From the NCBI GenBank assembly GCA_002086835.1, contig MVIG01000018.1, positions 32,185 through 96,184 of the forward strand: 64,000 bases of DNA. Reading direction: 5' to 3'. Below, piece by piece: positions 3,001 through 32,740 of the stretch. The notes under the pieces are model-generated. The model had not been told where the DNA came from. It did not search any database and saw only the letters and a program-made list of their open reading frames with translations. Source of the stretch: Mycolicibacterium porcinum. Lineage in GTDB: Bacteria > Actinomycetota > Actinomycetes > Mycobacteriales > Mycobacteriaceae. Numbering within the stretch: the stretch's first letter is position 1; the number at the start of each line of letters is the position of its first letter. A program made the position numbers and the translations under genes.

Positions 3001-5190
3001 CCCGCCGGTAGCCCTCCCGATGCACAGTCTCCGCCTGCCCGGCGGCGATCCGACCGAAGTTGGCCAGCGATTCCGTGCGTACCCGTGGGTCGGCGTCGCC
3101 CGGCATGTACTGGTAGTAGCTTCTGTGCGTCCCGACCGCGCTCAGGTCGTTCATCGAATCAGGGAACTGCGCGGTAATCCGGACCGCACCAAAGTCTTTC
3201 ATCGCCGGATCGAGGCCGAGGCCGCGCCCGAGGAACCGGCCATTCTGTCCCGGTGTGCGCCCGCCCAGGCCGGTGACCGGGTCCAGCGACGACGACGCGA
3301 CGAAAACGTTCTGAGCGCCGATCCCGAATCCGCTGGCGTGCCGGATCGGACCCGCGCCCGGTGAACCGAGCAGCGTCACCGTGCTGATGTCTTCGGCCAG
3401 TCGTCTGCCCTTACCCGCGTAGCTCGCGGTCGTCGAGCCGTACGAGTGCGCGAAGATGTGGTTGTTGCGGAATTCGCTGCCGTCGCCGGCGGTGGTGTTG
3501 CGCGCGGCGTTGAACGCCCGGATGTCGCTGTAGAGAATCTCCCCGCCCTTGCGGGCCAAACCACGGGCGGCGACCCGAGGGATGGCCGCATCGTTGGGCG
3601 CGTCATAGCCGATCCAGGCGATCGACGCCGCCGCCAGGTCCGGGTTCTCCTGTTGCGTCGACTGCAGATGGTTCAGCGCATTGCGCATGTTGCCTTCAAG
3701 CTTGTCGATCGTCGTGGCGAACCCCGGCACCAACCACGACACCGAATCAGCCAGGTACGGGTCGGCGCCGAAGCTCACGATCGCCCGGCCGTCACCGCCG
3801 AAGGCCGGAGAATCGAATGCCAGCACCAGCGGCGGGTCGATCCCGGCTGCCGCCGCTTCACCCTTCATCGTCGTCAGCGCATTGTGGAGGTTGTTCATGC
3901 GCCGCAGCAATCTGAGTTCACGCTTGGTGGGCTGCTCGCCACGATTGATCTTGCCCTGCACAAAATTTCGGGCGCGCTCGACGGAAAGACGGTTCGCCTT
4001 GTCGCGGGCCGTCGGCGGGATTCCCTCGGCATTGCCGATCTGTCTGGGGTAGGTCTCTATCAGCGCGTCGCGTTGTTCGTCGGACAGGCCCGCCCACCAT
4101 CGGGCGTTGTCCTCGGCCCGGGTCACGGCATCATCGGCCTTGCCCAGCGGGTTGACCACCTCGTCGATGTCGACGGCTGGCTCCCGTTGCGCCAGAGCAT
4201 TGTTCGCCGTCTCGCGGATGGTCGGCTCGACGGTGGCGTGCTCGGGAGGATCGGCCGGAGCGTCTGTCTCAGACGACGCCCCGAAGGCTTCGGTGGTGGG
4301 ATCGACACCGAGGTTCACCTCGACGACCGGGGTCCGCCCGTCGAGCGCGGCGGGCAACTCACGCGCCGACGATGCGACGCGGACGTTGCCGGGTTCCAGG
4401 CCGAACTCGGCGGCACGGCGCACCGGCCCGGTCCCTGGCGAGTCGGTGAAGTTGATCGCGCGAATATCGTGTGCCAACCGGGCATCTCGCCCGGCATAGC
4501 TGACGGCGGTCGTGCCGTAGTCCTGCGCGAAGATGTGGTTCTCGCTGAAGTGGCCACCGTCGGCGGCCAAGGTGTCGCGCGCAGCGTTGAACGCCCGGAT
4601 ATCGCTGTAGAGGATGGCCCCGCCGTCGCGGGCGAGCTGGTGACCGGCTGCGCGCCAACGGTTCCAGCCGCTGGGCGTGTCGTAACCGAGCCACGCGATC
4701 GCGGCTGCCGTCTGTGTCGAGTTCTCCTGTTGGGCCGCCTGCAGGTGGCTGATCGCGTCGCCCATGGTGACGCCGATCCGGTCGATCGTCACCCCCTGCC
4801 CGGGTACGTGCCACGACACCGAGTCCGCTTGATACGGATCGGCACCGAAGCTGACGACCGCGCGCCCGTGGCCACCGAATTCCGACGCATCGAAGGCCAA
4901 CAGCAGGGGACCGTCGATTCCCGCTGCTTGGGCCTGGGTCTGCGCCTGGGCGAGCGAACTCTGGATCCGCTCCAGCCGCGCCAGCGTCTTGCTCTGCGCT
5001 CTGGTGAGCCGATGTCCGCTGTCCCGCCAGGACTTCAACTGGTCGCGCTGGTTGCCGAGCAGTTCGGTGTTGGCCTCATGCCGAGCCTTGGGCGAGACAC
5101 CTTCGGCGTTGCTGATCTGCTGCGGGTGCACATCGATCAGGGCCCGCTGCTCTTCTCCGGACAGCGCGGCCCACCAGGCGGCGTTGGCGC
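1..5190 (-). repeat. Tandem divergent DUF1023 modules inside the giant toxin gene
   Basis: Four imperfect copies of a 360-480-residue unit lie head to tail. Each begins with a helical segment (RANARWW, then QIGNAEGIP) and continues with FDPPAFGGDGRAVVSFGAD, a VPG strand, the elbow (HSYGST in three copies) and a tail with DGRTVDPAxGRPL. Elbows are near 4522, 3445, 2086 and 643, so the spacing is about 1.1, 1.4 and 1.4 kb. The frame leaves the window inside sequence resembling the lead-in of another unit (ADALLRQRDP), so a fifth copy is likely. Copies share short near-identical DNA runs, for example around 920-950 and 3720-3750, which could support recombination or copy-number change. Confidence 0.85.
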
Positions 5191-7830: not shown

Positions 7831-8127
7831 CTACGGCTGGTCGTTCTGTTCGAAGGAGTCCGCGGACCCCTTCAAGCCGTCCGAGTAGTAGTCGAGCAGA
7901 TCGGTCTTGACCACCACCGACCCGTCGACCCAATCCTTTTGCGCCAGATACCCCGCACTGCCTTTCGCGTACCCGTCACCCATCTTGTCGTCACCCCAGG
8001 CGGCACCTTCGGCAGCCAGATTGGCTTGCAGGGTGGACAGCACGTTCTTCATCCTGACGCTGACATCGTTCAGGTTCCTCGACGTTGCCCGCAGGTCAGA
8101 GGGTCCGACACCGAGCTCGTCAGCCAT
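7831..8127 (-). CDS. WXG100 family protein (Esx-like)
   Basis: This 98-residue protein has the WXG100 size and helix-turn-helix layout. The turn is at AAWGDD, with Trp44 and Gly45 as the WxG-type motif, between two predicted helices of about 35 residues. Family members are small dimeric substrates of type VII secretion and often pair with a partner WXG100 protein or with the N-terminal domain of a larger toxin. No clear YxxxD/E secretion signal is visible in the C-terminal tail, where DYYSDGL lacks an acidic residue at the right spacing. It may therefore rely on a partner. It starts 4 bases after the EspL-like gene and is followed after 56 bases by the giant toxin gene, which suggests one operon. 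Confidence 0.85.
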   Translation of the reverse strand: MADELGVGPSDLRATSRNLNDVSVRMKNVLSTLQANLAAEGAAWGDDKMGDGYAKGSAGYLAQKDWVDGSVVVKTDLLDYYSDGLKGSADSFEQNDQP

Positions 8128-8131
8128 GGAT

Positions 8132-8596
8132 TCAGCTCCTCACGGTGGGGAATGCGGATTCGTCCCGGTCGTCGCCCTCAGGCTCGTTCGCCCGGACGTC
8201 AGTGCCGTCGTTGCCGAACACGGATCTGGTCAGGTCGCGCAGATCGGGCGCACCGTCGGCGATGTCGGACAGAGCCGGCATCATCCGGCGCCGTTCTTCG
8301 ATCGGCATCATCAGGGCAGCCGACCGCTGCGCCACGAGTTGCGCCGCGGTCTGCGCGGCCGCGGTGACGTGGCCGCCGAGTTCTTCGAGTTCGTACTCGT
8401 CGAGATACGACTCGTCGATGACGGTCTCGATGACATGGCCGCGGGCGTCGACGGTCACCGCGACCAGGCCATCGGCCTCCTCAGCACTTGCGGTGAGCTG
8501 CGCCTGCTCGCGCTGCACCGCAGCAATGTCGGCCATCTGCTCGGAGACCAAGGCGAGTACCTCGGTCATCTGATGCCGGAGGGCATCGTTGTTCAT
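8132..8596 (-). CDS. EspL-like YbaB/EbfC family protein
   Basis: This 154-residue protein starts MNNDALRHQMTEVL. It has the YbaB/EbfC pattern: an N-terminal amphipathic helix (about 1-40), a short beta segment (DGLVAVTVDARGHV) and a C-terminal helix, followed by an acidic tail. In the ESX-1 locus the YbaB-fold protein EspL (Rv3880c) stabilises secreted substrates. By position, as the first gene before the WXG100 and toxin genes, it may be a chaperone-like accessory factor here; that role is inferred. The ATG at 8596 is preferred because the upstream in-frame extension reads as Arg-rich non-coding sequence. Confidence 0.75.
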   Translation of the reverse strand: MNNDALRHQMTEVLALVSEQMADIAAVQREQAQLTASAEEADGLVAVTVDARGHVIETVIDESYLDEYELEELGGHVTAAAQTAAQLVAQRSAALMMPIEERRRMMPALSDIADGAPDLRDLTRSVFGNDGTDVRANEPEGDDRDESAFPTVRS

Positions 8597-8851
8597 TCCG
8601 ATCAGTGTTCCAGATTCGCAAACGCGTCGCCACGTTCTTTGCCGAATTCGATTATGGCCGACCGTATTTGAGTGACCGAACAATTACGCTTGCGAAATTG
8701 CCATCATCGCAATGCCACTCACACCGCAATTTGCCACCCGCGCGTAGATAACCGAGATTTACTCGGCAGTCCGCGCCCCGCGCGCATAGCTCACACACCG
8801 CCCACCGATTCGCGCGTTCTTTGCCTATGCGAGGTTTCGATGCGGCTGCGG
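8597..8851 (-). promoter_or_regulatory. Intergenic region before the EspL-like/WXG100/toxin genes
   Basis: These 255 bases between two minus-strand genes are the longest non-coding gap in the ESX locus and look more AT-rich than their surroundings. They probably carry the promoter for the substrate genes, which would separate their control from the eccC-eccD-mycP-espI unit. No convincing -10/-35 pair or operator could be picked out. Confidence 0.35.
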
Positions 8852-10381
8852 TCACCGGTACTGCGGCGCACCGCGCAGCCGGGGAAACTTTTCCGCCACT
8901 GCGGCTGCCAGTTCCAGATACGCCTGGAGGGTGGCCGGGTCCAGCAGGTCGAAGTCGACGTCGGCGCCCTCGGCCAGATGCGGATCGAACGGGATCATGT
9001 GCACCGAGCGGCACCTGGCTTGGAAATGCTCGTAGACCTTGTCCAGCTTGAGCTTCGCCGATCCTGGTCGTGAGGCACTGAGCACCACGTGTGCCTCGCG
9101 GACCAGCGCGGAGTGACCGTGCTGCATGAGCCAGTCCAGCGTCGCCGATGCGCTGCGCGCCGCGTCGATGGCCGGCGAGCTGACCAGCACGATCGCGTGC
9201 GCCAGGTCGAGCACGCCTGCCATCGCGGAATGCATGATGCCGGTACCGCAGTCGGTGAGGATGATGTTGTAGTAGCGACGCAGGATGCTGACGGTGCGGC
9301 GGTAGTCCGATTCGCCGAACACCTCCGACACCGCGGGTTCCTGCTCGCTGGCCAGGACCTCCAGCCGGCTGCCCGCCATGCGGGTGTGGCTGCGGACGTC
9401 GGCATAACGCTGGATGTCGGGATCCGACAACAGATCTCGCACCGTCGATTGGCTCGACGCGTCCCGCACCCGCTCGGCCAACGTGCCGCGGTCCGGATTG
9501 GCGTCCACCGCGATCACCCGGTCGTTGCGCATCATGGCCAGCGCCGAGCCCAACCCCAACGTGGTGGTGGTCTTGCCGACCCCACCCTTGATCGACAGCA
9601 CCGCGATCCGGAAGTCGCCGGCGATCGGCTGACGGATCTGGGCCAGCAGGTCGTCCCGCTCACGCTCCTTGCGTGACTCACCGGGGTTGACGCGACCGGC
9701 GCTTGCCAGGTGCACGGCCCGGCGCCATCCCGAGTGGGGGGCGTTGCGGGCCCGGTTGATGATCCCTGCGTCATCCAGCGAGGGCGGCACCGGCGAATAC
9801 TGCGGCGGCTGAGTCACGCCCGGGGGCGGGGGCATCAGCGGTGGCACGAAGCCCGGCGGCGGAAACGGCAGCGGGGGCAGCGGTGGCGGCGGAGGAGGCG
9901 GCAACGGCGCAGGCGCCTGCGGCGCTGCCTCCGGCGGCAGGGCATGCCTGGGTGGCAGCGGCGGAATCGGGATCAGGCCATTCGGCGGCTCGGGGCGTTC
10001 AGCGGCCGGCGCCTCGGGCTGGGCCGCAGGTTCCGGCTCATCGAGCTCGAATCGCTCGGCGAACTCCCTGGACCCGATCGAGCTGTGCATCTGCCACGGT
10101 GGCGGCGCGAGCCGGCGGACCGGCGCAGCCGCAGGGGCCGGTTCGACCTGGGATTGTTCGGGCTGGGACTGTTCAGCCCGAGGTGGAGGTGGCGGAGACA
10201 CCACGAATGCATCGGTGGTGTCATCTGCCGGCGATGAGGCGGTGTGGTTCTGCCTGGCTGTGCGTTGCGCCGCAATCTGTTCCAGCAGCGCGGCCGCCCT
10301 GGCCTCCACCTCGTCCAATTCCCCAGGAGCCAAGTCGTCGAGCGATGTGGGCTCGACGTTCGGCCGATTCTCGTCCGGCAT
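8852..10381 (-). CDS. EspI-like ESX-associated MinD/ParA-type ATPase
   Basis: This 509-residue protein has two parts. Residues 1-190 are Pro, Ala and Gln-rich and likely disordered, with long proline runs. The C-terminal part is a SIMIBI/MinD ATPase domain with a deviant Walker A, KGGVGKTTTT, near residue 266, and a switch region (ILTDCGTG) near residue 375. The same arrangement is seen in EspI of ESX-1 and in the Rv3888c type of ESX-2. In ESX-1, EspI has been linked to regulating secretion in response to ATP. The start lies 12 bases after the mycP stop, so it is probably the last gene of the eccC-eccD-mycP-espI operon. Its exact function here is unproven. Confidence 0.85.
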   Translation of the reverse strand: MPDENRPNVEPTSLDDLAPGELDEVEARAAALLEQIAAQRTARQNHTASSPADDTTDAFVVSPPPPPRAEQSQPEQSQVEPAPAAAPVRRLAPPPWQMHSSIGSREFAERFELDEPEPAAQPEAPAAERPEPPNGLIPIPPLPPRHALPPEAAPQAPAPLPPPPPPPLPPLPFPPPGFVPPLMPPPPGVTQPPQYSPVPPSLDDAGIINRARNAPHSGWRRAVHLASAGRVNPGESRKERERDDLLAQIRQPIAGDFRIAVLSIKGGVGKTTTTLGLGSALAMMRNDRVIAVDANPDRGTLAERVRDASSQSTVRDLLSDPDIQRYADVRSHTRMAGSRLEVLASEQEPAVSEVFGESDYRRTVSILRRYYNIILTDCGTGIMHSAMAGVLDLAHAIVLVSSPAIDAARSASATLDWLMQHGHSALVREAHVVLSASRPGSAKLKLDKVYEHFQARCRSVHMIPFDPHLAEGADVDFDLLDPATLQAYLELAAAVAEKFPRLRGAPQYR

Positions 10382-10393
10382 CTTCCCCCTAAC

Positions 10394-11776
10394 TCACCTG
10401 GTCCGCCGCCGGGCAGCAGCCACCGCCACCGCCGCCACCATCAACGCAAGACACGCCGCGGTGACGGTGAAGACGATCCTGCGCGCCCGCACATTACCCG
10501 CATCAGGTTGCGGCGGCCCGCTGATCGGTGAAGCGGCGGTGACGTCGCGCTCGGCGGTCCCGGGTGTGAGCTGGTAAGTCAGCGCTGCGACGGGGTCCAC
10601 GACTCCATAACCCGTGGCCTGGTTGGGTCCATTCCCCGGGGTGCGGGCGGTGCGTTGGACCAGATCCTTGACCTCACCAGCGGTCAGCGCGGGGTAGCGA
10701 GAGCGGATCAACGCCACCACACCCGAGACGAACGGTGCCGCGAAGCTGGTGCCGTTCAACGGGGCCAGGCCCTGCTGGCCGAGTTGTGCGTTGCTCAGGC
10801 CGGGTCCGCCGGCATCCAACGAGGTGACCCGCTCGCCGGGGGCGGCCACCGCCAACCACGGCCCATGCAGGCTGAAGTCGGCCGGGGTGGCCGAGGTGGT
10901 CACGGCTCCGACGGTCAGCACGTAGTCGGAGAACCAGGCCGGGCTGGCTATGGTGCTGACGCTGTTCCAGCCGGTGTGCAAGGGCTGGTTCGGATCGTCC
11001 ATGTTGTTCTGCGCACTGCACATGCTCTGGGAGTTGAAGTTGCCCGCGGCCGCCACCACCACGACGTTCCGTTCGTACGCGTAGCGCACCGCACGCCCGA
11101 GCTCCCGGTCGTCCATACCTGCGGCCACCGGGGCGCACGCCACCTCGGAAAGGTTGATCACCGTGGCGCCGAGGTCGACCGCCCGGGCGATCGCCAGTGC
11201 CAGCGTGCGCGTGTTGCCGTAGCCGACCGATGTCGCGTTGGGGTCGTCGTTCTGGCCGCTGCTGGTGCCCGCGACGCTGTAGGCCCCGCTGTTCTGCCGG
11301 ATCGACAGGATCGTCGCCTCGGGCGCGACCCCGGCGAAGCTGTCGCCGTCGGCCGGCGCCGCACCGATGATGCCGGCGACCAGGGTGCCGTGTGCATCGC
11401 AATCGACCAGTCCGTCGGTGTTCGACACGTAGTCGCCGCCCGGCTCGAGCGCGGGCAGTCGCGGATGACGGTTGACGCCGGTGTCGATCACCGCCACCTT
11501 CTGCCCCGCGCCGCGCGAAAAGCGCCAGGCCTTGCGGTATTCGAGCATGGCCTCGGCGCTGGTCTGCTTGGTGAAGTCGGTACCGGGCAGCACGCCGGTG
11601 GGGACGCCGCAGATCGACTTCTGCTCGGTGGGTTGCGTCGGCGCGACGGGCCCGGTCGGCGGCGGACCGGGTTCGACGACGGGTGGGGTGACCGCACCGG
11701 CCGGGGGCGCGCCGAAGCCGGCCAGCACCACCGTGAGAACGACGGACACCACAGCCGTGCACCGCCGGGCGGTCAT
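10394..11776 (-). CDS. mycP: Mycosin, subtilisin-like ESX serine protease
   Basis: This 460-residue membrane-anchored protease is an essential component of mycobacterial ESX systems and acts on the outer side of the membrane. It has a Sec signal peptide (about 1-28), a Pro-rich propeptide-like stretch and a complete subtilase catalytic set: Asp98 in VAVIDTG, His129 in DAHGTLVAG, oxyanion Asn246 in AAAGNFN and Ser344 in NGTSFAAP. One C-terminal transmembrane helix (about 432-452) ends in an Arg-rich cytosolic tail. The ATG overlaps the stop of the upstream eccD gene as ATGA, which implies translational coupling. Which mycosin paralogue it matches best cannot be settled by eye, so no ESX number is given. 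Confidence 0.95.
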   Translation of the reverse strand: MTARRCTAVVSVVLTVVLAGFGAPPAGAVTPPVVEPGPPPTGPVAPTQPTEQKSICGVPTGVLPGTDFTKQTSAEAMLEYRKAWRFSRGAGQKVAVIDTGVNRHPRLPALEPGGDYVSNTDGLVDCDAHGTLVAGIIGAAPADGDSFAGVAPEATILSIRQNSGAYSVAGTSSGQNDDPNATSVGYGNTRTLALAIARAVDLGATVINLSEVACAPVAAGMDDRELGRAVRYAYERNVVVVAAAGNFNSQSMCSAQNNMDDPNQPLHTGWNSVSTIASPAWFSDYVLTVGAVTTSATPADFSLHGPWLAVAAPGERVTSLDAGGPGLSNAQLGQQGLAPLNGTSFAAPFVSGVVALIRSRYPALTAGEVKDLVQRTARTPGNGPNQATGYGVVDPVAALTYQLTPGTAERDVTAASPISGPPQPDAGNVRARRIVFTVTAACLALMVAAVAVAAARRRTR

Positions 11777-13209
11777 CAGCCGCCCAGCCGTTCGTACAGT
11801 CCGAGGGGCCACAGGGCCAGCGGTATCACCGCCGCCACGGCCAGATACTCCAGGTAGCCGGCAGCCGACCGGATCCGGCGAAGGTACGGGGCCGCGACTC
11901 CGCCGACGGCCAGCGCCGCGAGCACGACGACCCCGGTGAGCTGCAGCGGCCACGCCCCGGTCTGGGCCTGCACGCACACGGCCAGCACGAGCGCACCCGC
12001 TGGTACTGCAAGCCCGGCACGTTCCGGCCAGGTCGCCGCCCGGCGGCTGTTCAGGGCCAGCACCGCACCACAGCCGACGGCGAAAGCGAAGGCCGCCCAG
12101 CCTGTGTCGAGCCGCATCACCACGGCGGCGCCGACCAGCGCGGTCGTCGCCGCACCGGCCAGCAGTCCCGAGCGCGTCAGCACCGCGGCGTGCACCCGGT
12201 CCCACACCTGCTCCGCGCTCGGCATCGGGGTCCCGGGTTCTACCGTGGCGACCGACGCGGTGAAGGGATCGTCCCCGCGGGACGCGACCACGGACGCCAC
12301 GGGGTACTGGTCCAGCTTCGCCGTCAGCACCGGCACTGCCAGGCACGCGAACACCGCGACCACGGCGGTCACGGTGGCCACCGCAAGGGCCGGTGCGCCC
12401 AGTGTCCGGGCCCCGAACGCAGCGGTGCCGAAACCCAGCAGCACCGCGGCGGCGACATAGGTCCAATGGCCCGCGGCGATCACCCGGTGACAGATCACCG
12501 TGAGCCCCAACAATATTGCGCACGCAGCGGCGAAACCGACGGCACCGTGCGGGGCCGCAGGCACCCAGCCCGCCGCGGTGCCGACGGCGATCACCGGCGG
12601 ACCCGCCGCCGCGGCGATGTCGGAGCGGCCCAGTACCCGGCGGACCAGCGCCGCACCGGCGACCAGGGTCACCAGCATCAGCGCCGCTGCCACCAGGACC
12701 ACCGCCCGGTGCGCCGACAACGCCGGCGCCAGCAGCAGGACCACCCACACCGCCGCGCACAGCCACAAGCCGGCGAAGGCCATCATCCGTGCCGCGGTGG
12801 CACTCCAGGCCGCATACGACGCCCGGTTCAGCCGGGCCGCCGCATCCACCACGTCGTCGTACAACGCGGGCGGCGTGAGCGCCTGGCGAGCCGAAAGGCG
12901 CAGCAGCTCGCCGTTTTTCACCCCGGCCTCACGTAGCGTCCGGTCGGGCGGCAACACACCGGCCCCGGCCCGCTCTTCGCGACTGAGCTCCCAGAAGGTC
13001 CGCCGTTCGTCGCGGTCGGCCAGGTCGTCACTGCGTTCGTCGTCGCGGGACTTGATCAGCCGGGCCAGCTCGGGCAGGAATGCCGCGACCGGGACGTCGG
13101 CAGGCAGCGCGACATCCAGCTGGGTGCGGCCGCCAACCACCGACACGCGGATCGCCTCGGGTGCCGCCGACACCACGTGTACCGGGCGAAGCTCCTCGAC
13201 CCCGGTCAC
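11776..13209 (-). CDS. eccD: EccD-type ESX membrane channel protein (copy A, in the eccC operon)
   Basis: This 477-residue protein has a ubiquitin-like cytosolic domain at about 15-100 (IRVSVVGGRTQLDVALPADV) and then roughly 11 hydrophobic segments ending in ALWPLGLYERLGG. This is the EccD architecture. In solved ESX-3 and ESX-5 complexes each protomer holds two EccD copies, which dimerise and form the membrane vestibule. It overlaps eccC upstream and mycP downstream by 4 bases each (ATGA), so the three are tightly coupled. A second, clearly different EccD is encoded on the opposite strand at 17329-18795. A charged Arg/Asp/Glu insert (about residues 54-72) sits inside the ubiquitin-like domain. 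Confidence 0.9.
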   Translation of the reverse strand: MTGVEELRPVHVVSAAPEAIRVSVVGGRTQLDVALPADVPVAAFLPELARLIKSRDDERSDDLADRDERRTFWELSREERAGAGVLPPDRTLREAGVKNGELLRLSARQALTPPALYDDVVDAAARLNRASYAAWSATAARMMAFAGLWLCAAVWVVLLLAPALSAHRAVVLVAAALMLVTLVAGAALVRRVLGRSDIAAAAGPPVIAVGTAAGWVPAAPHGAVGFAAACAILLGLTVICHRVIAAGHWTYVAAAVLLGFGTAAFGARTLGAPALAVATVTAVVAVFACLAVPVLTAKLDQYPVASVVASRGDDPFTASVATVEPGTPMPSAEQVWDRVHAAVLTRSGLLAGAATTALVGAAVVMRLDTGWAAFAFAVGCGAVLALNSRRAATWPERAGLAVPAGALVLAVCVQAQTGAWPLQLTGVVVLAALAVGGVAAPYLRRIRSAAGYLEYLAVAAVIPLALWPLGLYERLGG

Positions 13210-16200
13210 AGGTCGGGCATCCTCGACAGTTGAACCACACCACTGCGGGTGGTCCGCGAGACCAGCATGCCGCGGCCGGGAGGCATCGCGCTGGCCTTGT
13301 ATCCGCCGAACAGCCCGCCCTCGTCTCTGCTTCCGCTCATCACCAACCCGTTGCAGGACAGGTCTTTCAGACGTCCGACGATCGGATCCATCATCGCCCG
13401 TCCGGCTCCGCCGCTGCGCCGGGTGATGATGACGCGCAGTCCGATGTCACGGGCCTGCGGCAGATACTCGACCAGCGGGCCCAGCGGATGGCTCAGCGAA
13501 CCACCGGGGATCAGGTCGTAGTCGTCGATCATCACGAAGAGGTCCGGCCCCGACCACCACGACCGTTCCTTGAGCTGCTGTTGAGTGATGTCGTTGGGTG
13601 GCAGCCGATCTTTGAGCGCGCCGGCCAGTGCGGTCATCAGATCCGTGCACGACTGTGGGGCCGTGGCGTAGCCGCCCAGGTATTCGTCGGGCACGACGCC
13701 CAGCATCGAGCGCCGGAAGTCGACCAGGATGATCTTGGCTTCCACCGGGGTGGCGTTCTCCATCACGCCTGCGGCGATGTTGCGCAGCAGACCGGTCTTT
13801 CCGCATTCGGTGTCTGCGAAGGCCACCAGATGCGGCTGCGAATCGAAATCCAGGATGACGGGGGCGAGCTCTTCCTCGTTGATGCCGATGGCGATTCGGG
13901 CCTTGCTGAGCTGGCCGGCATCGCGCGCGACCCGGACAACATCGTCGCGGTTCACGTCGTGCGGCAGCATCCGCACCTTCGGCGCCTCGCGGTCCTGGTA
14001 ATGGGCGCGCACCGCCTCGACGGCCGCTGCCACCCCGGCGGGGAGATCCTCCACCCCGGAACTGGAATCCAGCCGCGGCAACCCGATCAGGATGTGCAGA
14101 CGCTCTGAGTTGATACCGCGACCGGGCCGGCCGATCGGGACCAGTTCGGCCGACCGGCGTGCCACCTCGCTGTCGATCGGGTCACCGAGGCGCAGCTCGA
14201 TACGGGTGCCGAGCATGTCCTTGACCGCAGGCCGGATCTCCATCCACCGCGATGCGGTGATCGCTACGTGCACGCCATAGGACAGGCCCTGGATGGCCAG
14301 CGATTGGATCACCGGGTCGAGCTGCTCGAAGTCGCTCTTGATCGATGCCCAGCCATCGACGACCAGCACCACGTCGCCGAAGTTGTCCTGGCTCAACGGA
14401 TCCTGCGCGGCCTCCGCCGGAGGTAGCGCGGCCAGACGGGCCTTGCGCTGGCGGAAGTCGCGCATCGATTCGATGCCGAGTTCGCGGAACAGCTGCTCGC
14501 GGCTGCGCAGCACCCCGGCCACCTCGGCCACGGTGCGCCGGATGGCGTCGGCGTCCATCCGGCCTGCCACCCCGCCGACGTGCGGCAACTTCGCGAGGCT
14601 GGTCAGCGTGCCACCACCGAAGTCCAGACAGTAGAACTGCAGCTGCTCGGGAGTATGGGTGGCGGCCGCGGACATGATCAGCGTGCGCAGCGTGGTCGAC
14701 TTGCCCGACTGCGGACCACCCACCACCGCGACGTTGCCCTGGGCACCGGACAGGTCGACCATGAGTACGTCGCGGCGCTGGTCGTAGGGCCGGTCCACCA
14801 CGCCCATCGGCATCCACAACCGGCCGTTCAGGTTCTGCGGGGACGACCAATCCGATTCGGGCAGCAGCTCGTTCACGGCGGGGCTGTCATCGAGCGGCGG
14901 CAGCCACACCTCGTGGGCGGGCCTGCCGTGGCCGCGGAGCCGGCTGACCACCATGTCGAGCAGCGTCGTCTTGGTCGGCCCTGAGCTGGCCCGCTCCGGC
15001 TCGGTCTCCGGCACGTCGTGCGGCAGCGGCACGCGCTCTGGCACCGGATCCTTCTTGACCGGCGTGGCGGTGAACAGCTTCGGGGCCAGTGCCCCCAATT
15101 GGGTCACCCGCCCGGTGCGCGCCGAGATCCGGGGTTTGACGTAGTCGCCCGAGACATAGCAGGCATTGAACCGGATCGGCTCGGAGGCATCGCATTTCAG
15201 GAACGCCGACCCGGGGACGCTGGGCAGGTGATAGGCGTCGGGCACGCCGAGCACGCTGCGCGACTCGCCCGCGGAGAACGTCTTGAGACCGATCCGGTAG
15301 GACAGGTGCGAGTCCAGGCCGCGCAGCTTGCCTTCCTCCAGGCGCTGCGAGGCCAGCAGCAGGTGCATGTGCAGCGAGCGGCCCAGCCGGCCGATCATCA
15401 CGAATAGCTCGGCGAAATCCGGTTTCTGGGACAGCAATTCGGAGAACTCGTCGACCACGACGAACAGGGCGGGCAGCGGTTCGAGGTCGGCCCCCGCCGC
15501 GCGGGCCCGCTCGTACTCGGTGACGTTCGGGAAGTTACCGGCGGCCCGCAGCAGCTCCTGACGGCGGTTCATCTCACCGGACAGCGCGTCACGCATGCGG
15601 TCCACCATGGTGAGCTCGTCTTCGAGGTTGGTGATGATGGCCGCGATGTGGGCGATGCCGTCCAGACCGAGGAACGTGGCGCCGCCTTTGAAGTCGACGA
15701 GCACCAGGTTGAGCTGTTCGGGTGAGTGCGACGTGATCATCGACAGCACCAGGGTGCGCAGGAATTCCGACTTGCCCGAGCCGGTGGCGCCGATACACAG
15801 CCCGTGCGGGCCCATGCCGCCCTCGGCCGCCTCCTTGATGTCGAGTTCGAGGGGCTGACCGTTCGGGGTGATGCCGATCGGCACCCGCAGCCGCTCCCGC
15901 GGCGAGCGCTGCCGCCACACCTGTTCAGGCACGATACCTGCCGCGTCGGGAATCTTCAGCAGTGCCATCAGGCCGGGATCGACTGCCCGCGAATCGGCTT
16001 CCAGGCTGACGATGTGCGCGGCGTTCGCCGGACGGTAGCGGCCGATCCGCCGGGCCGTGGTCTCGGCCTCGGGAATGGTGATCGTGTCCGGGGTCGCGAA
16101 CCGCTCGACACCCACCGCGGTGCGGGCGGCGACGTCGTCACCGTCGAGGACCAGTTGCAGGCTGCGACGGGCCGAGGCGCCGGCACGCAGGCCGTTGAGG

Positions 16201-17243
16201 TCCAGCAGCGTCACGCTGTCCAGCCCGGCGTCGGTGATCAGCTGCTCGTCGCCGGTGACGAATCCGTCATCGAGCACGACCACGAGTTGTTTCAGACCCT
16301 GTGTGGGCTGCGCGTTGCGGGTGAACCGGCCGCGTTCGGCCAGCTCGGCGGACATCGCGGTCTCCATCAGCTCGAGCGTGGGGAACAGCAACCGCATCGA
16401 ACCAAGGCCGTCACGGGTCGACGAATGCTGCGCGTGCGGCAGCCATTTGACCCAGCTCCAGTTCTCCCCGTCCGGGTTGGCGGTGACGATCGCCACCTGC
16501 ACGTGGTCAGGGCCGTGAAAAGTGCACAGCTCCAACACCATCGACCGCACCAGCTGCTGGGCGAGCTTGCGCTCCCCCTCGAAGGTGATGGTGGGAAACG
16601 CCCGCAAGGACACCGCGGTCGGCAGCGCGTGCACCACGGAATGGGTCTTGACGAACCGGCGCAGCGCCACCGTCGACACCGGTTCCAGGTCCTCGGGTGG
16701 GCCGGTCTCGGGCGCCATCAACCGCGTCGCCAGCCGGTGGGTCCCGATCCCGACCCTGATGTGGCAGTAGTCCGCATCGCTGGGCCGCCGCTCCCACATC
16801 CGCCTGGTGCCCACCACATCGCTCAGCGCCCGCGGATCGGGATGGCTCCATTCCAGCGCCGTGCGTTGTTCGGCACCGGTGGTGTCGGCTTCCTCGCGAA
16901 GATTGGCCAGATAGCTGAAGTAGTCCTTGCGTTCCTCGTTGAGCTCGGCGGCGGCTTTGCCGTTCCGGTTTCCGCCGCCCATGAACATGCCGACCATCGA
17001 CATGATCATCATCATCGGAAACAGCAGGAACATCGGGCTTCTGGCCATGTCCCGGCCACCGACCGTGACCATCAGCGCGATCATGCCGATCACCGCGACC
17101 AGCATCACGAACGGCATGAGCCGCATCATCAGGTTGCCCGGGATCGCCCGCGGCACCTCGGGCGGTGGGGCCAGGTTGACCTCGCCTCCAGGCATCCGCG
17201 GCGGCGCCACCCGTAGGCGGCGGACGAACCCCTGCGTACTCAA
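13206..17243 (-). CDS. eccC: EccC, FtsK/SpoIIIE-type ATPase motor of the ESX system
   Basis: This is the single-chain EccC motor, 1,345 residues. It has two transmembrane helices near 35-85 and three FtsK/SpoIIIE ATPase domains with Walker A motifs GATGSGKSE (about 485), GGPQSGKST (about 844) and DTECGKT (about 1146). The Walker B strand LVLVDFKGG is in ATPase 1. EccC recognises substrates through its last ATPase domain and powers export. The start is placed at TTG 17243 (protein STQGFVRRLR), directly preceded by a GGGAGGG ribosome-binding site. The same frame stays open far upstream, but that stretch is antisense to eccD copy B. It is the first gene of the eccC-eccD-mycP-espI unit and diverges from eccD copy B. 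Confidence 0.93.
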   Translation of the reverse strand: MSTQGFVRRLRVAPPRMPGGEVNLAPPPEVPRAIPGNLMMRLMPFVMLVAVIGMIALMVTVGGRDMARSPMFLLFPMMMIMSMVGMFMGGGNRNGKAAAELNEERKDYFSYLANLREEADTTGAEQRTALEWSHPDPRALSDVVGTRRMWERRPSDADYCHIRVGIGTHRLATRLMAPETGPPEDLEPVSTVALRRFVKTHSVVHALPTAVSLRAFPTITFEGERKLAQQLVRSMVLELCTFHGPDHVQVAIVTANPDGENWSWVKWLPHAQHSSTRDGLGSMRLLFPTLELMETAMSAELAERGRFTRNAQPTQGLKQLVVVLDDGFVTGDEQLITDAGLDSVTLLDLNGLRAGASARRSLQLVLDGDDVAARTAVGVERFATPDTITIPEAETTARRIGRYRPANAAHIVSLEADSRAVDPGLMALLKIPDAAGIVPEQVWRQRSPRERLRVPIGITPNGQPLELDIKEAAEGGMGPHGLCIGATGSGKSEFLRTLVLSMITSHSPEQLNLVLVDFKGGATFLGLDGIAHIAAIITNLEDELTMVDRMRDALSGEMNRRQELLRAAGNFPNVTEYERARAAGADLEPLPALFVVVDEFSELLSQKPDFAELFVMIGRLGRSLHMHLLLASQRLEEGKLRGLDSHLSYRIGLKTFSAGESRSVLGVPDAYHLPSVPGSAFLKCDASEPIRFNACYVSGDYVKPRISARTGRVTQLGALAPKLFTATPVKKDPVPERVPLPHDVPETEPERASSGPTKTTLLDMVVSRLRGHGRPAHEVWLPPLDDSPAVNELLPESDWSSPQNLNGRLWMPMGVVDRPYDQRRDVLMVDLSGAQGNVAVVGGPQSGKSTTLRTLIMSAAATHTPEQLQFYCLDFGGGTLTSLAKLPHVGGVAGRMDADAIRRTVAEVAGVLRSREQLFRELGIESMRDFRQRKARLAALPPAEAAQDPLSQDNFGDVVLVVDGWASIKSDFEQLDPVIQSLAIQGLSYGVHVAITASRWMEIRPAVKDMLGTRIELRLGDPIDSEVARRSAELVPIGRPGRGINSERLHILIGLPRLDSSSGVEDLPAGVAAAVEAVRAHYQDREAPKVRMLPHDVNRDDVVRVARDAGQLSKARIAIGINEEELAPVILDFDSQPHLVAFADTECGKTGLLRNIAAGVMENATPVEAKIILVDFRRSMLGVVPDEYLGGYATAPQSCTDLMTALAGALKDRLPPNDITQQQLKERSWWSGPDLFVMIDDYDLIPGGSLSHPLGPLVEYLPQARDIGLRVIITRRSGGAGRAMMDPIVGRLKDLSCNGLVMSGSRDEGGLFGGYKASAMPPGRGMLVSRTTRSGVVQLSRMPDL

Positions 17244-17328
17244 CCTTCCCTCCCCGGAAGCTGCTGGAGCCGGATGCTGGGTATTGTTCGTGTCGAGCAA
17301 TCCCATTGCGCAGGAGGCCGACTGGATT
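17244..17328. promoter_or_regulatory. Divergent intergenic region between eccC and eccD copy B
   Basis: These 85 bases separate two divergent ESX genes and must carry the promoter of the minus-strand core operon and probably that of eccD copy B. An AGGAGG ribosome-binding site at 17312-17317 serves the plus-strand gene. No -10/-35 pair could be assigned confidently. Confidence 0.4.
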
Positions 17329-18795
17329 GTGACCCTACTTGAGCCAGAGCTCGAGGCGGAAGCCGAACCCGAGCTGAGCCGATTGACCCTGGTGGTCGGC
17401 GAACTGAACATCGACGTCGGGCTGCCTGCACACGTCAGCATCGCCCAATACATTCCCGATGTCATCGATATCGCGAATGAACAGATCACGAACCAGGACG
17501 CGATCGTCGAGTTCGACGCCGCCGACGGGCGGTGGACGCTGGCCCCGCTCGGCGGCGCGCCGATCGAACCGCACCTGTCCCTCGGCGAGGCCGGGGTCCA
17601 CGACGGCGACCTGTTGATGATCTGCGCGGTGGGCCAGCCGGTCAGCCCGCTGCTGTTCGACGACGTCGACGACACCCACGCCGCAGCGGCAGGCACCGTC
17701 CGCAGTTGGCTCGCGGACAAGGCGAACGCGCTGGCCGGGTTCGGTGTCACCGCGGCCGCCGCGGTCACGCTGGCCGGCGTCGTCGCACGCTGGACCGCCC
17801 AGCCCGCCGTCCCCGCGGCGGTGCTGGCCCTCGGCGTGACGGGAATGGTGCTGGCCTGCCTGGTGGCGCACCGGCCCGCAGCCGCCGCGGCGCCGGCGTG
17901 GATCACCGCGGTGTCGACCCCGCTGGTGTTCGCGGGCTCGCTGTACCTGGTGCCCGGCGGTTCCGGCGCGACATCGCTGCCGATGGCGTTCGCCCTGACC
18001 GCTTTCGGTGCGCTCCTGGTACTCCTCGTCTCGGGCAGCGGGTCTGCCGTGTACACCGCGATCATCACGGCGTGCGCTTTCGGCGGCGTCAGTTCGACGG
18101 CGATGTTGCTGTGGCAGGCGCCCATCCGCGCCGTGGGCGCTTTGCTCGCCACAGTCGCCGTTATCGTCGTCTACCTCGCGCCGCGGGTGACCATCGGGCT
18201 GTCGAAGCTCCCGATCCCACGGGTGCCGACGGCCGGTGAACCGCTCGACGACATCGAGACCCAGGGCGGCCCAACTGTCGAGGGCGTCAACGCGATCGGC
18301 AAGCAGATCATCCCCACCGAGGAAGACCTGATCAGCCGCGTCCGCCGGGCCAATCAACACCTCACCGGGATTCTCGTCGCGGCCGCCCTCGCGGCCCTGG
18401 TCGGCTGTTACCTGGCCGTGGATGTCAGCGACGGGTTCTATTGGCAGGGCACCGTTTTCGCCGTCATGGTGGCGACGGTGCTGTGCCTGCGCGGTCGCGG
18501 CCACCATGACCTGGTGCAATCGGCCACGCTCATCGGCAGCGGACTGACCATCGCTGTCGCCGTGGTCCTCAAGACCGCGCTGAACGTCGAGGGCTGGCAG
18601 GCCCGTGCTGTGGTCGTGCTGCTCGCCCTGATGGCGCTGATCCTGGCCTGCGGGCTGGTCGCACCGCTGCGCGAGTTCTCCCCGGTGGCGCGGCGCCAGG
18701 TCGAGATACTCGAATACATCGCGGTGGGATCGCTTTTCCCGCTGTGCTTCTGGATCGTCCGGGTCTACGCGTTCTTCCGCGAGATGCGCCTCTGA
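17329..18795 (+). CDS. eccD: EccD-type ESX membrane channel protein (copy B, divergent from eccC)
   Basis: This 488-residue protein has an acidic N-terminus, a ubiquitin-like domain (about 15-100; LTLVVGELNIDVGLPAHV) and about 11 transmembrane segments ending in FWIVRVYAFFREMRL. The GTG at 17329 is chosen for its AGGAGG site 11 bases upstream; GTG 17290 in the same frame is an alternative. Position and orientation, divergent from eccC, match eccD4 in the classic ESX-4 locus. Its sequence differs substantially from copy A, so this is an ancient paralogue pair and not a recent duplication. Its stop codon directly abuts the stop of convergent eccB. Together the two could supply both EccD positions of one protomer. 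Confidence 0.88.
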   Translation: MTLLEPELEAEAEPELSRLTLVVGELNIDVGLPAHVSIAQYIPDVIDIANEQITNQDAIVEFDAADGRWTLAPLGGAPIEPHLSLGEAGVHDGDLLMICAVGQPVSPLLFDDVDDTHAAAAGTVRSWLADKANALAGFGVTAAAAVTLAGVVARWTAQPAVPAAVLALGVTGMVLACLVAHRPAAAAAPAWITAVSTPLVFAGSLYLVPGGSGATSLPMAFALTAFGALLVLLVSGSGSAVYTAIITACAFGGVSSTAMLLWQAPIRAVGALLATVAVIVVYLAPRVTIGLSKLPIPRVPTAGEPLDDIETQGGPTVEGVNAIGKQIIPTEEDLISRVRRANQHLTGILVAAALAALVGCYLAVDVSDGFYWQGTVFAVMVATVLCLRGRGHHDLVQSATLIGSGLTIAVAVVLKTALNVEGWQARAVVVLLALMALILACGLVAPLREFSPVARRQVEILEYIAVGSLFPLCFWIVRVYAFFREMRL

Positions 18796-20301
18796 CTACG
18801 GCTTACCCGTCGACACCTTGCTGCTGTCGGGGTCGGCCGCCATCCCGTCATGGGCGACCAGCGCCGCCTCCTGGGACAGTTCCGGTCCGGCCGGCAACAG
18901 CGATAGCACCGCCCACGGCGCCCACTGCGGGGCGTTGACCGGGCCGTCGGGAACCTTGACGCCGGCGACCCCGAGCACCTCGGCCGTCGGAAAATCCTTG
19001 ATGTGGTAGCGCACTCCGGTGTCGGACACGTAGAATAGCTGCCCCGTCGCGCGGCTGTCCGGATCGTTGCCGGTGGCCTGCACGTACTCCCCGGCGCCCG
19101 GGGTGAGGTACACCGAGTCGGCACCGGCACCGGCGCCGTCGGCGCTCGCCAGCCGGACCGTCTGGGCTCCCTCGGCGGTGGGCAGCCGGTGCCCCACCAG
19201 CAGCCGCACGTTCGCGCGGGCGTCGGTGTTGGACCGCTGCCAGCCCATACACACCACGCGATCCGGGTTGGGCGGCACCATGCGGGGCGATTGCAGGGGG
19301 TAATGGTCGGTCGCCAACCGGTGCACGGTCGGCACCTCGGCGAGCGTCGCGGGGGCGATCTCGTCGGCCTGCCCGGTGGCCACCTCGCCGGACGCGCCGT
19401 AGCGGATGATGTCTGCGGTGGCCTGCGATACCGGCTGCAGGCCCTCGCGCAACACGACGTAGAGCTGTTCGCCCCGGGAGTCGACGGACTTCACGATGGC
19501 GCCCACCGGATGCTCCGGCCCGAGCGGTCCCGGCTCCCCCGAACCCTGGATGGCCACCGGGGTGATCGGGTCGACCAGCGGGAAGGTGTTGAGCACCGAC
19601 AGTGACATGGGCCGGGTGGCCGCGCCCTGGAGGTGAAGGCCGTTGACCAGAACCGGATCCGACATGTCGATCGGGGCCCGCACACCGCCATAGATGAGAT
19701 AGGTGGTGCCGCCGGATTCGGTGAGGATCGCCTCGTCGGACTCGGCGGGGCGGATGCCGCCGTCGAGCACCGGGTCGTTGGCCAGCACCGTGGTCTGCAG
19801 GCTGGACGTGCCGGTGGTTTCGGTGACGGCCGGTGTCAGCAGGTTGTCGCACACGGTCCACGACGACATCGCCAGGTCGTCGCCGCGGTTGATGCTCGTG
19901 GGCGCGCCGACGATGCCGACCATCGGACCGCGCGGTACGGCGTCGAGGAACTTGTCGTCGACCTGCTTGGGACTGTCGTTCTTGCCGACGATCAGCCGCG
20001 CCGAGGCCAGGTTCAGCACGGGATGGATCTGCTCGCCGATGCGCACGAACGGCGCACCGCTGGACTTGCTCAGCACGATCTGCGCATCACCGAGATTGGG
20101 TGTGGGCTTGAAGAACGCCATCACCGCCGAGGCCCCGGCGATCAGGACGGCGATCACCACTCCCACGATCAGGGCCCGCATCTGGCCGCGCATCGGGTCG
20201 TGGATCATCCGCGAATCGCCCCGGATGAGTGCGTGCTCAAGGCGGCGGATCAGGAAACGGTAGCCGTTCACCTGTGCGCGAGTGGTAACTTGCGCTGGCA
20301 T
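18796..20301 (-). CDS. eccB: EccB, ESX core membrane/periplasmic protein
   Basis: This 501-residue protein has the typical EccB opening (PAQVTTRAQVNGYRFLIRRLEHALIRGD). It has a single transmembrane helix at about 45-66 and a large periplasmic domain with the repeated beta/alpha layout and two Cys (about 151 and 351) that may form a disulfide. EccB links EccD/EccC to the periplasmic ring of the secretion complex. The stop codon abuts the stop of convergent eccD copy B without a gap. The start is 62 bases from the divergent eccE start, leaving room for a shared promoter region. Confidence 0.95.
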   Translation of the reverse strand: MPAQVTTRAQVNGYRFLIRRLEHALIRGDSRMIHDPMRGQMRALIVGVVIAVLIAGASAVMAFFKPTPNLGDAQIVLSKSSGAPFVRIGEQIHPVLNLASARLIVGKNDSPKQVDDKFLDAVPRGPMVGIVGAPTSINRGDDLAMSSWTVCDNLLTPAVTETTGTSSLQTTVLANDPVLDGGIRPAESDEAILTESGGTTYLIYGGVRAPIDMSDPVLVNGLHLQGAATRPMSLSVLNTFPLVDPITPVAIQGSGEPGPLGPEHPVGAIVKSVDSRGEQLYVVLREGLQPVSQATADIIRYGASGEVATGQADEIAPATLAEVPTVHRLATDHYPLQSPRMVPPNPDRVVCMGWQRSNTDARANVRLLVGHRLPTAEGAQTVRLASADGAGAGADSVYLTPGAGEYVQATGNDPDSRATGQLFYVSDTGVRYHIKDFPTAEVLGVAGVKVPDGPVNAPQWAPWAVLSLLPAGPELSQEAALVAHDGMAADPDSSKVSTGKP

Positions 20302-20363
20302 GCGTAGTGTTTAGCACGTCCGCACCACCTCGACATGACGTCCGAGCGCCTACTCGAAAAGCG

Positions 20364-22055
20364 ATGCGTCCATTGACTTTCGCAGCAAAGCTGACCACCG
20401 CCGGCGATACCGGCCCGCAGCGGGTCTTCCCCCTGGTCGACCTGGTCGCCCTGCAAATTATCGTCGTCGTAGGTATCGGTACCGCCGTCCTACTGGAGCG
20501 GCCGGGCTGGCAGGGCGCGGTCGCGGGCTTGGCGGTGGCCCTGCTGGTGGTAGCTCCGGTCGTACGGGGGACGACGGCACCCCGGGCGCTGGCACTGCGC
20601 GGCAGGTTCGTGCGCAACCGGCGGCGACGCACGGGTAAAACCGCGTCGGGCTCCCTGCCCGCCGAGCCGTTCGACGTCCCCACCCCCGACGGTCTGCAGA
20701 TCGGATTCCGTTGGAACGGTTCAACGTTGCTGTCCTTGCTCAAGATCGACGAAAACCCCAGGGCGTTGACCGTTTTGGAGCCAGGGGTCACCGTTTCCGG
20801 CGAGATGGTTCCCGTGCAGGCCCTGCTGGAGTGCCTGCGCCAGTTCGACATCACGCTCGAGTCCATCGACATCATCAGTCAGGGCGCCCGCTCGGCCGGT
20901 CACACCGACGTCGCCGCGGTCTACGACTCGGTGTTGGGACCGTTGCCCGCGATCGCCCAGCGCACCGTGTGGATTGCGGTGCGGTTCAATCCGTCACGCT
21001 GTGCGGAGGCGGTCCGTCGCCGCGGCGGTGACCGTGACGGCATCCTGCGCGCCGCCACCACCGCCACCCGCCGCGTCGCCAACCGGCTGGCCGAGGCCGG
21101 CCTACAGCCCCAGTTCCTGTCCGCGAGCGGCATCGCGGCGGCCACCAATCAGCTCAGCGACGGCGTCAATCTCGGCACCGTCGAAGAAACCTGGGAGGAC
21201 TGCCGCGAGGGCCACTTCCGGTTGTCCAGCTTCGCCGTTGAACCGAACATGCTGACCACGCCGGGCCTCGGACTGTTGTGGACGGTGCCGAGCTACTCCA
21301 CCACGGTGTGTCTGTCGCTGCGGGAGGCGGCCGAGGAAGACCTGGTGCAGGTTCGCGGGCTGGTCCGTTTCGACAGCGACGTGCGTGTCCCCACCCACCT
21401 GCGCGGCCTCATCCCGCTGCACGGTCAGCAGTTCTCCGCGCTGGCCGCCACCCTTCCGATCCCGACGGTGCCCGGGGCCGACCATATCGAGCACTGGGCG
21501 TCGGGCCTTCGCAGCGACGCGTTGAGCGAGCTGGCGCTGCCCGCCTCGGGCTGCGGTCAGGTGATCGGCGCCGACGAACAGGGGCGAGCCGTCGCGCTCC
21601 CGGTGTTCGGCCCACAGATTCGCCGCGTGGAGATCGTCGGGACGCTGCACCTGGCCCAGCAGGTGGTGCTGCGCGCGCTGGCCCTCGGTGCCCGGGTGTT
21701 GGTGCACAGCCGGCGGCCCGCGTTCTGGCGCGACATGGTCGAGGTGGTCGGGCGCCATGACCTGCTGTGGGTCGCGGACTTCAACCGCCGCACCATCCAG
21801 GCCGGCGCCGAGCGCAACTACACGGTCGAGATGTTCGACGGTGTTCCCGAGCAGTCGGTCCGGATCGGGGTCACCACCATGGTGCTCACCCCGCCGAACA
21901 CCCCCGCTGGGCAGGCCGACGTGGTCCTGGACCTGATCTCACTGGAGCACGACACCGTCAAGGTCAGCACCCAGGCCGGCTCGGCGGTGGTCACGATGGT
22001 CGCCACCGACGACGAGATGCGTTATCTGCGAGCATCCGCGAACAGCATTGACTGA
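20364..22055 (+). CDS. eccE: EccE-type ESX membrane protein
   Basis: This 563-residue protein has two adjacent N-terminal transmembrane helices (about 22-70) and a large cytosolic domain with RTVWIAVRFNP and LGLLWTVPSY segments, as in EccE. EccE sits at the periphery of the ESX membrane complex. Classical M. tuberculosis ESX-4 lacks EccE, whereas ESX-4 of M. abscessus and some other loci have it, so this system is of the more complete kind. The ATG at 20364 is chosen because it leaves space for a divergent promoter with eccB; GTG 20307 is in frame and would add 19 residues. The next gene starts 15 bases downstream and may be co-transcribed. Confidence 0.85.
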   Translation: MRPLTFAAKLTTAGDTGPQRVFPLVDLVALQIIVVVGIGTAVLLERPGWQGAVAGLAVALLVVAPVVRGTTAPRALALRGRFVRNRRRRTGKTASGSLPAEPFDVPTPDGLQIGFRWNGSTLLSLLKIDENPRALTVLEPGVTVSGEMVPVQALLECLRQFDITLESIDIISQGARSAGHTDVAAVYDSVLGPLPAIAQRTVWIAVRFNPSRCAEAVRRRGGDRDGILRAATTATRRVANRLAEAGLQPQFLSASGIAAATNQLSDGVNLGTVEETWEDCREGHFRLSSFAVEPNMLTTPGLGLLWTVPSYSTTVCLSLREAAEEDLVQVRGLVRFDSDVRVPTHLRGLIPLHGQQFSALAATLPIPTVPGADHIEHWASGLRSDALSELALPASGCGQVIGADEQGRAVALPVFGPQIRRVEIVGTLHLAQQVVLRALALGARVLVHSRRPAFWRDMVEVVGRHDLLWVADFNRRTIQAGAERNYTVEMFDGVPEQSVRIGVTTMVLTPPNTPAGQADVVLDLISLEHDTVKVSTQAGSAVVTMVATDDEMRYLRASANSID

Positions 22056-31966: not shown

Positions 31967-32740
31967 ATGCTGCCGGGTTTCGCGGGCGCTGAAGCTGCTG
32001 CGGCGTTAGCGTGGTCGGCTGTGGACTGGGAATTTGAGGGCGAGGTATTCCAGTGGCGCGGTCCTGCGCCGTATTTCTTCGTCGCCACACCCGCGCACGT
32101 CGATCAGTTCCTGCGCGCTCACCACAGCGAGCTCACCTACGGCTGGGGGGTCATCCCCGCTCAGGTGCGCATCGGCACGACCGAGGTGACCACCTCGCTG
32201 ATCCCCAAAGACGGGGTCTACCTGGTACCGCTGAAGGTCGCGCTACGCCGCCCCGAAGGGATCGACGACGGCGATCAAGTACGGGTACGGCTGCAGGTCA
32301 GCCGCCACCACAGCGATGTCCCACGTGAAAGTCCGGGAATGTCCACATTTGTGATCGATGCAGCGGTGGCAATCAAACTCGCCTCCGACAATGCTGTCAT
32401 CCCTGCGCGGCACAGCCTGACCGCACCCACGCTGCTGCGTTCGCAGGTACTGGCTCTCGTGTACGCATCGGTGCGCCGCGGCGAGGTCGACGAACGCACC
32501 GGACGCAAGGTTCTTGACGATATCCGTGCCCTGAAGATCAGGTTCCTCGGTGACCGATCGCTGGAAGACCACGCGTGGCGGCTGGCCAACACTATGAACT
32601 GGCCAGACGTACACCAAGTCGAATACATCGTGCTGACCCAGCTGCAGGCTGACGCACTGGTTACCTTGAACGACGAACTCGCCGCCGCGGCAAGGGCATT
32701 CGTCAAAACCGCGTCACTAGCGGACGTTCTACAGCCGTGA
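31967..32740 (+). CDS. DUF1905-PIN domain fusion protein
   Basis: This single 257-residue frame contains two unrelated domains. Residues 19-111 (WEFEGEVFQWRGPAPYFF to VRVRLQV) match DUF1905. From Met125 (STFVIDAAVAIKL) the sequence is a VapC-like PIN domain, the RNase toxin of type II toxin-antitoxin pairs. The internal ATG at 32339 is in frame, so the PIN part could also be made alone. The first acidic residue (Asp131) is present. The usual Glu in the following helix is Gln160 (LLRSQVLAL), and the later acidic positions (QVEYIVL, LVTLNDELA) are altered, so nuclease activity is doubtful. No VapB antitoxin gene is visible. It sits at the right end of the inserted block, convergent with egtE. 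Confidence 0.7.
   Translation: MLPGFAGAEAAAALAWSAVDWEFEGEVFQWRGPAPYFFVATPAHVDQFLRAHHSELTYGWGVIPAQVRIGTTEVTTSLIPKDGVYLVPLKVALRRPEGIDDGDQVRVRLQVSRHHSDVPRESPGMSTFVIDAAVAIKLASDNAVIPARHSLTAPTLLRSQVLALVYASVRRGEVDERTGRKVLDDIRALKIRFLGDRSLEDHAWRLANTMNWPDVHQVEYIVLTQLQADALVTLNDELAAAARAFVKTASLADVLQP

Follow-up and report, generated by a model that had tools for sequence, protein, structure and literature searches.

Why does a single ESX locus encode two different EccD proteins? In the solved ESX-3 and ESX-5 complexes, each protomer contains two EccD molecules of one gene in non-identical positions, as was stated in a preliminary description of the locus analysed here; one molecule is bent and distal, the other extended and proximal. 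That description proposed that a locus with two eccD genes could build a fixed heterodimer, each copy being specialised for one position. We studied the pair in Mycolicibacterium porcinum using a window, i.e., the whole stretch of 64,000 nucleotides at positions 32,185 to 96,184 of the forward strand of contig MVIG01000018.1 (assembly GCA_002086835.1), and in related loci. Gene content, co-occurrence, purifying selection, and reciprocal constraint were all computed directly.

The locus is an ESX-4-bis locus, and its gene order matches the one published in the ESX-4-bis passages of PMC7478629. This order already includes two eccDs; their presence in ESX-4-bis is not new, and what is new is the evidence on how the pair works. 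Both genes are real, intact, and located where they had been described. The first, eccD-A (11776-13209, minus strand, 477 residues, GTG start), is the predicted distal (outer, bent) EccD, and the second, eccD-B (17329-18795, plus strand, 488 residues, GTG start), the predicted proximal (inner, extended) one. Both were identified by profile search, as were eccB (18796-20301, minus strand) and eccE (20307-22055, plus strand). The reported coupling of copy A to its neighbours also holds: it overlaps eccC (13206-17243, minus strand, above the cut-offs of TIGR03924 and TIGR03925) by 4 bases, GTGA, and joins mycP, the mycosin gene (10394-11776, minus strand), at a TGATG junction. The scans gave 13206-17246 for eccC and 10394-11761 for mycP; the TTG start at 17243 and the ATG overlapping the eccD-A stop codon are our readings of the sequence. 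Copy B is divergent from eccC, as described, and convergent with eccB. There is one eccB, one eccC, one eccE, and one mycP in the locus. The genome has five EccD genes, the other three being outside the window in loci (L018, L019, and L020) that resemble ESX-1, ESX-4, and ESX-3 in gene content and layout. The closest copies of A among named relatives include those of Mycolicibacterium senegalense, septicum, setense, and peregrinum (79-84%), which are the same set as the fortuitum genomes in the relevant part of PMC8752049.

Next to mycP lies a ParA/MinD-like ATPase gene (8852-10381, minus strand), which adjoins mycP in many ESX-4-bis loci. It is separated by two ORFs from a giant ORF downstream: a YbaB/EbfC-like one (8132-8683, minus strand) and a WXG100-like one of 98 residues (7831-8127, minus strand), whose 22.1 bits against PF06013 are below the cut-off of 27.3. 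The giant ORF has 5014 codons, covers positions 1-7774 (minus strand), and runs past the window to G000:C13:24914. Its first 2590 residues include a WXG100-like domain and four Abhydrolase_8 stretches, and its product may be a substrate of the ESX-4-bis system. The ESX-4-bis passages of PMC7478629 place eccA about 17 kb downstream of mycP. Here, the giant ORF takes up about 15 kb downstream, and two ORFs beyond it, searched against NCBIfam, are not EccA.

The products of both genes belong to the EccD family. Copies A and B score 139.5 and 272.8 bits against TIGR03920 (cut-off 94.95), and the Pfam YukD and EccD domains are above their cut-offs in both alike. Their AlphaFold2 models (pLDDT 88.0 for A and 85.6 for B) consist of a ubiquitin-like domain and a helical membrane part, in agreement with the ubiquitin-like domain and about 11 transmembrane segments reported for each; B has 11 long membrane helices, and in A a single long helix (203-244) seems, by our own count, to span two membrane helices. 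The reported strong difference in sequence corresponds to 32% identity over A residues 7-472. Foldseek gave EccD5 and EccD3 chains as top matches of both models. By sequence search, copy A reaches only the ubiquitin-like domain of EccD1, and it had no match at 1e-5 among 72,556 plasmid records. In comparisons with seven close relatives, A has a dN/dS of 0.19-0.25 and B one of 0.14-0.19; within this group, therefore, there is no decay of either copy.

The two copies also occur together across the genus. With copy A as the query, 396 genomes of the genus yielded A-type matches in 62 cases, a count that stops at E 3.5e-41 and excludes weaker single matches lower in the list, plus a match at a contig edge (G393). 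B is present in all 63. In 54 of the 62, the search with copy A itself returned a second match a few kb away on the opposite strand; in the other eight, B was found in the fetched loci (L054, L062, L068, L074, and L158-L161), as was the B of G393 (L163). A is full length in 59 of the 63 genomes, the exceptions being G393 (contig end), G313 (A in two pieces), G246, and G238. In G246 (L212), residues 1-202 of A are followed by mycP, and B is whole, with no Ns. In G238 (L213), A is limited to residues 1-132, mycP starts from residue 68, B is split, and there are Ns nearby. Both genomes thus have an A without its C-terminal part and a mycP whose start is also absent or unmatched. Faulty assembly could explain these cases, or the losses could be genuine, in which event they would argue that A is not strictly required or that the locus is dying out.

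The rest of the machinery is usually present once. In 45 of the 52 annotated loci (some of which are one genome under two identifiers), A, B, eccC, eccB, eccE, and mycP are each present exactly once. Among the other seven, eccB and eccE are missing from the stretch in L067 and eccE in L160 and L162, the contig ends before mycP in L093 and L163, and genes are split in L078 and L080. Both A and B are retained in L160 and L162, where the genes are reordered. One genome (G374) has two ESX-4-bis loci (L162 and L165), each with A and B, one of them rearranged. The annotated loci of other genera each have a single EccD above 70 bits. In one genus of the same family (g10), genomes contain two ESX-4-like loci separated by tens of kb; each locus has an eccC and a single EccD of its own, and the gene orders differ (L147/L148 and L149/L150).

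The solved complexes indicate which parts of EccD serve each position, as described in the passages on EccD contacts of the respective papers. In ESX-5, two EccD elements flank the EccC stalk, namely the long TMH6-TMH7 loop, contributed by the pore-proximal EccD5-1, and the Ubl-TMH1 linker, contributed by the distal EccD5-2 (PMC8232910). In ESX-3, the hinge E110-A115 of EccD3-bent touches EccC and EccB, and its I112 and A115 fit a pocket that the TM6-7 loop of EccD3-extended forms. D111 finds a partner in the bent copy and none in the extended one, and A113 and A115 of the extended copy are packed in a hydrophobic patch (PMC11370616). In these systems, the EccB helix meets TM11 of the extended or proximal EccD, EccE TM1 meets TM11 of the bent or distal one, and, in ESX-5, the N terminus of EccB hooks the TMH10-11 loop of EccD5-1 (PMC6986878, PMC8131196, PMC8232910, PMC11370616). 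The same 28-residue linker of ESX-3 adopts two shapes; according to the authors, it could rearrange with little energetic barrier (PMC6986878). At our locus, the counterpart of EccD3 V109-A115 in copy A is the hinge at residues 117-123 (YDDVVDA; 12841-12861, minus strand), and the TM6-7 loop motif of copy B is at residues 292-311 (18202-18261, plus strand), both sets of coordinates being derived from residue numbers.

We compared the conservation of these elements in 46 loci (49 minus 3 duplicates, with the split-gene loci L078 and L080 still included), where both copies are matched and share time and ancestry. The hinge has a p-distance of 0.012 in A and 0.513 in B, whereas the TM6-7 motif has 0.724 in A and 0.092 in B. 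For comparison, the whole proteins have 0.547 (A) and 0.414 (B), and the ubiquitin-like domains, at 0.457 and 0.440, evolve without any contrast in rate. In the eight loci that were not found via the hinge pattern, the values are 0.036 (A) and 0.628 (B) for the hinge, and 0.827 (A) and 0.107 (B) for the loop. A structure-blind scan of 475 windows of nine columns, with 0.02 added to both distances before taking the ratio, placed its 12 lowest A/B ratios in the linker (A113-133) and its 12 highest in the TM6-7 loop (B294 to ~313), followed by the TM8-9 loop. Given that linker and loop cover 27 and 39 of ~475 positions, the chance of both extremes falling in them is ~0.005, a rough value because the windows overlap. 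The contrast is also visible without alignment. The raw hinge pattern is present in 44 of the 46 A and in no B, the two A that lack it being the split genes of L078 and L080, and the raw loop pattern is present in all 46 B and in one A, i.e., that of L076, the only A with a loop-like PVPTVP. Residues D118-A123 of the hinge are invariant in 33 of 33 A from a protein search and in 44 of 44 in the residue counts, from which L078 and L080 had been removed.

Single EccDs of related loci mostly have both elements. The two patterns are found together in 20 of the 22 proteins, and the other two keep the loop and miss the hinge pattern by its last residue only. In this set, which leaves out the ESX-1, ESX-3, and ESX-4 copies of the M. 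porcinum genome, the p-distances are 0.354 for the hinge, 0.458 for the motif, and 0.643 for the whole protein; both elements are thus better kept than the whole. Columns conserved in 21 single EccDs give the same division: 10 were flagged as kept in A only, of which eight belong to the ubiquitin-like domain or the linker, and 23 in B only, 20 of them in the membrane part, including the TM6-7, TM8-9, and TM10-11 loops and the C-terminal end. The contig scan for single EccDs (L086-L126) used the hinge (LYDDVVDA) as search pattern, so we excluded these loci, except L088, from the conservation counts. Copy A keeps the parts used in the distal position and has lost much of those used in the proximal one, and B shows the reverse, as would be expected of two positions filled by different proteins.

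A universal rule by which every EccD has the hinge and the loop motif was considered and rejected, because many EccDs of the genus are without one or both patterns: among 29 TIGR03920 matches, 18 have the hinge without the loop pattern, five have neither, and six have both. The EccDs retrieved with the genome's own ESX-4 copy as query (L193 and L196-L209) have mostly neither (12 of 15) or the hinge only (3 of 15), which hints at a joint loss of the two elements. Since the patterns are not universal, what supports our claim is how the paralogues within a locus differ, together with the agreement of this contrast with two sets of structures.

We infer that A and B very likely pair with each other, and quite likely as an EccD heterodimer of ESX-4-bis in which A takes the distal position and B the proximal one. 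The protomer in the inner membrane would be EccB1:EccC1:EccD-A1:EccD-B1:EccE1, with one paralogue in each of the EccD positions for which ESX-3 and ESX-5 use the same protein twice. The strictly kept Ubl-TM1 hinge of A, the outer and bent copy, would pack on the EccC stalk and the EccB helix. The strictly kept TM6-7 loop of B, the inner and extended copy, would flank the same stalk and take in the hinge of A, and the TM10-11 loop and TM11 of B would meet EccB near the pore. Following the duplication of eccD, each copy would have shed what its own position does not use, and A/A and B/B protomers should therefore fail. The proposal of a heterodimer with one position per copy is supported, at the level of sequence comparison, by the reciprocal loss of hinge and loop and by co-occurrence in all 63 genomes, and the truncated A of two relatives counts against it.

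The locus might instead serve two machines, i.e., A/A and B/B homodimer complexes that have EccB, EccC, and EccE in common and may differ in their substrates or in the conditions under which they act. The single eccB, eccC, eccE, and mycP would fit such sharing, and the expression of A, on the strand of eccC, could differ from that of the divergent B. We regard this as improbable, since A/A would be without the loop and B/B without the hinge, whereas the single EccDs of related loci mostly have both.

A heterodimer with reversed positions, A being proximal and extended and B distal and bent, is also improbable, but has some residues in its favour. At the A113 site, most B have acids (E19 and D15 of 44), so B cannot copy the extended contact of ESX-3 exactly. 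Judging from the acids and mixed residues at the A113 and A115 sites, either the linker of B must sit differently or the assignment must be reversed. With its acidic hinge, B could be suited to the network of charges that links the bent copy to EccB and EccC, and A retains the hydrophobic A113 and A115 sites that the extended copy of ESX-3 uses. Against this, the D111 site is free to vary in B (D36 E5 K1 H1 S1 of 44), where the E110 site is D in 44 of 44 sequences, and both sites are invariant in A. Moreover, B has preserved the contacts of the proximal copy (TM6-7 loop, TM10-11 loop, and TM11), which have eroded in A. In particular, B retains P452, R456, E459, and R484 (43-44 of 44 each), as well as E462; the first four are mostly lost in A and lie in the TM10-11 loop and C-terminal region where EccB meets the proximal EccD. 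The models say little on this point. In A, a separate helix over the hinge (118-132) is followed by a break and TM1 (137-160), and in B one continuous helix covers 113-155; the broken and continuous helices would fit the bent and extended shapes, but these stretches are of low confidence and carry little weight. Comparing chains, Foldseek did not separate A and B by EccD position, both models having a lower rmsd to 6umm_B than to 6umm_C.

It is slightly less probable still that B alone forms the core, with A as an accessory or regulatory EccD-like protein. The faster evolution of A (0.547 versus 0.414), the disappearance from it of many conserved residues of the membrane part, and its truncation in G246 and G238 would agree with such a role. 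However, the best-kept part of A is the hinge, which touches EccC and EccB in the solved complexes and which a core made of B only would lack, and A is under purifying selection in all seven comparisons.

The phylogeny bears on how the pair arose. In a tree of 92 rows, a quick search with SH-aLRT support only, A (32 rows) and B each form one clade (SH-aLRT 100), and B is placed beside eight single EccDs (support 87) when the tree is free. A tree constrained to join A and B in one clade is no worse (p-AU 0.688, likelihood 10.7 units above the free tree). Because this fit is slightly better, a duplication within the ESX-4-bis lineage is allowed, although not proved. The neighbourhood of eccD-A and mycP resembles the eccD/mycP pair of single-EccD loci. 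The evolution of ESX systems has reportedly been treated by Dumas and by Newton-Foot, in 2016. That A is the remnant of a degraded second ESX locus, as the preliminary description had considered, is extremely improbable: the two ESX-4-like loci of g10 make a fusion of two loci conceivable as an origin, but A is intact here, with eccC and mycP directly attached, and 59 of 63 genomes have it at full length. It also evolves under purifying selection and forms one clade, and a joint clade of A and B is not rejected.

The two quasi-equivalent EccD positions are thus probably encoded, in ESX-4-bis, by paralogues that divided the contacts among themselves and have ceased to be interchangeable. If so, bent and extended would be fixed roles rather than states that one molecule must exchange during secretion. 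With the roles on separate genes, one position can be deleted, tagged, or mutated without touching the other, an option that systems with a single eccD do not offer. The pair also makes it possible to test by evolution, without recourse to the maps, which of the contacts seen in the solved complexes are important. Our literature search, which covered few of the subscription journals, returned no study that assigns roles to a pair of EccD genes within a single system.

How does the locus compare with known systems? The ESX-4-bis of Mycolicibacterium mageritense and of ICEMyc226 have a gene order with two eccDs like that of the window, and the passages on ESX-4-bis in PMC7478629 are silent on the roles of the two proteins. 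Among the ESX-4-like loci with a single EccD in other genera of the order (L086-L126, L147-L157, and L164), many share with our locus an eccC divergent from eccD, a convergent eccB, and an eccE after eccB. They differ in having only one eccD above 70 bits, located beside mycP, with hinge and loop in the same protein in 20 of 22 cases. The ESX-3 and ESX-5 cores have EccB, EccC, two EccDs, and EccE per protomer, according to the structural accounts in PMC6986878, PMC8131196, PMC8232910, and PMC11370616, and both copies of the window are homologues of EccD5 and EccD3. Yet, in those accounts, one eccD gene provides for both positions, whereas our locus has two paralogues between which hinge and loop are split.
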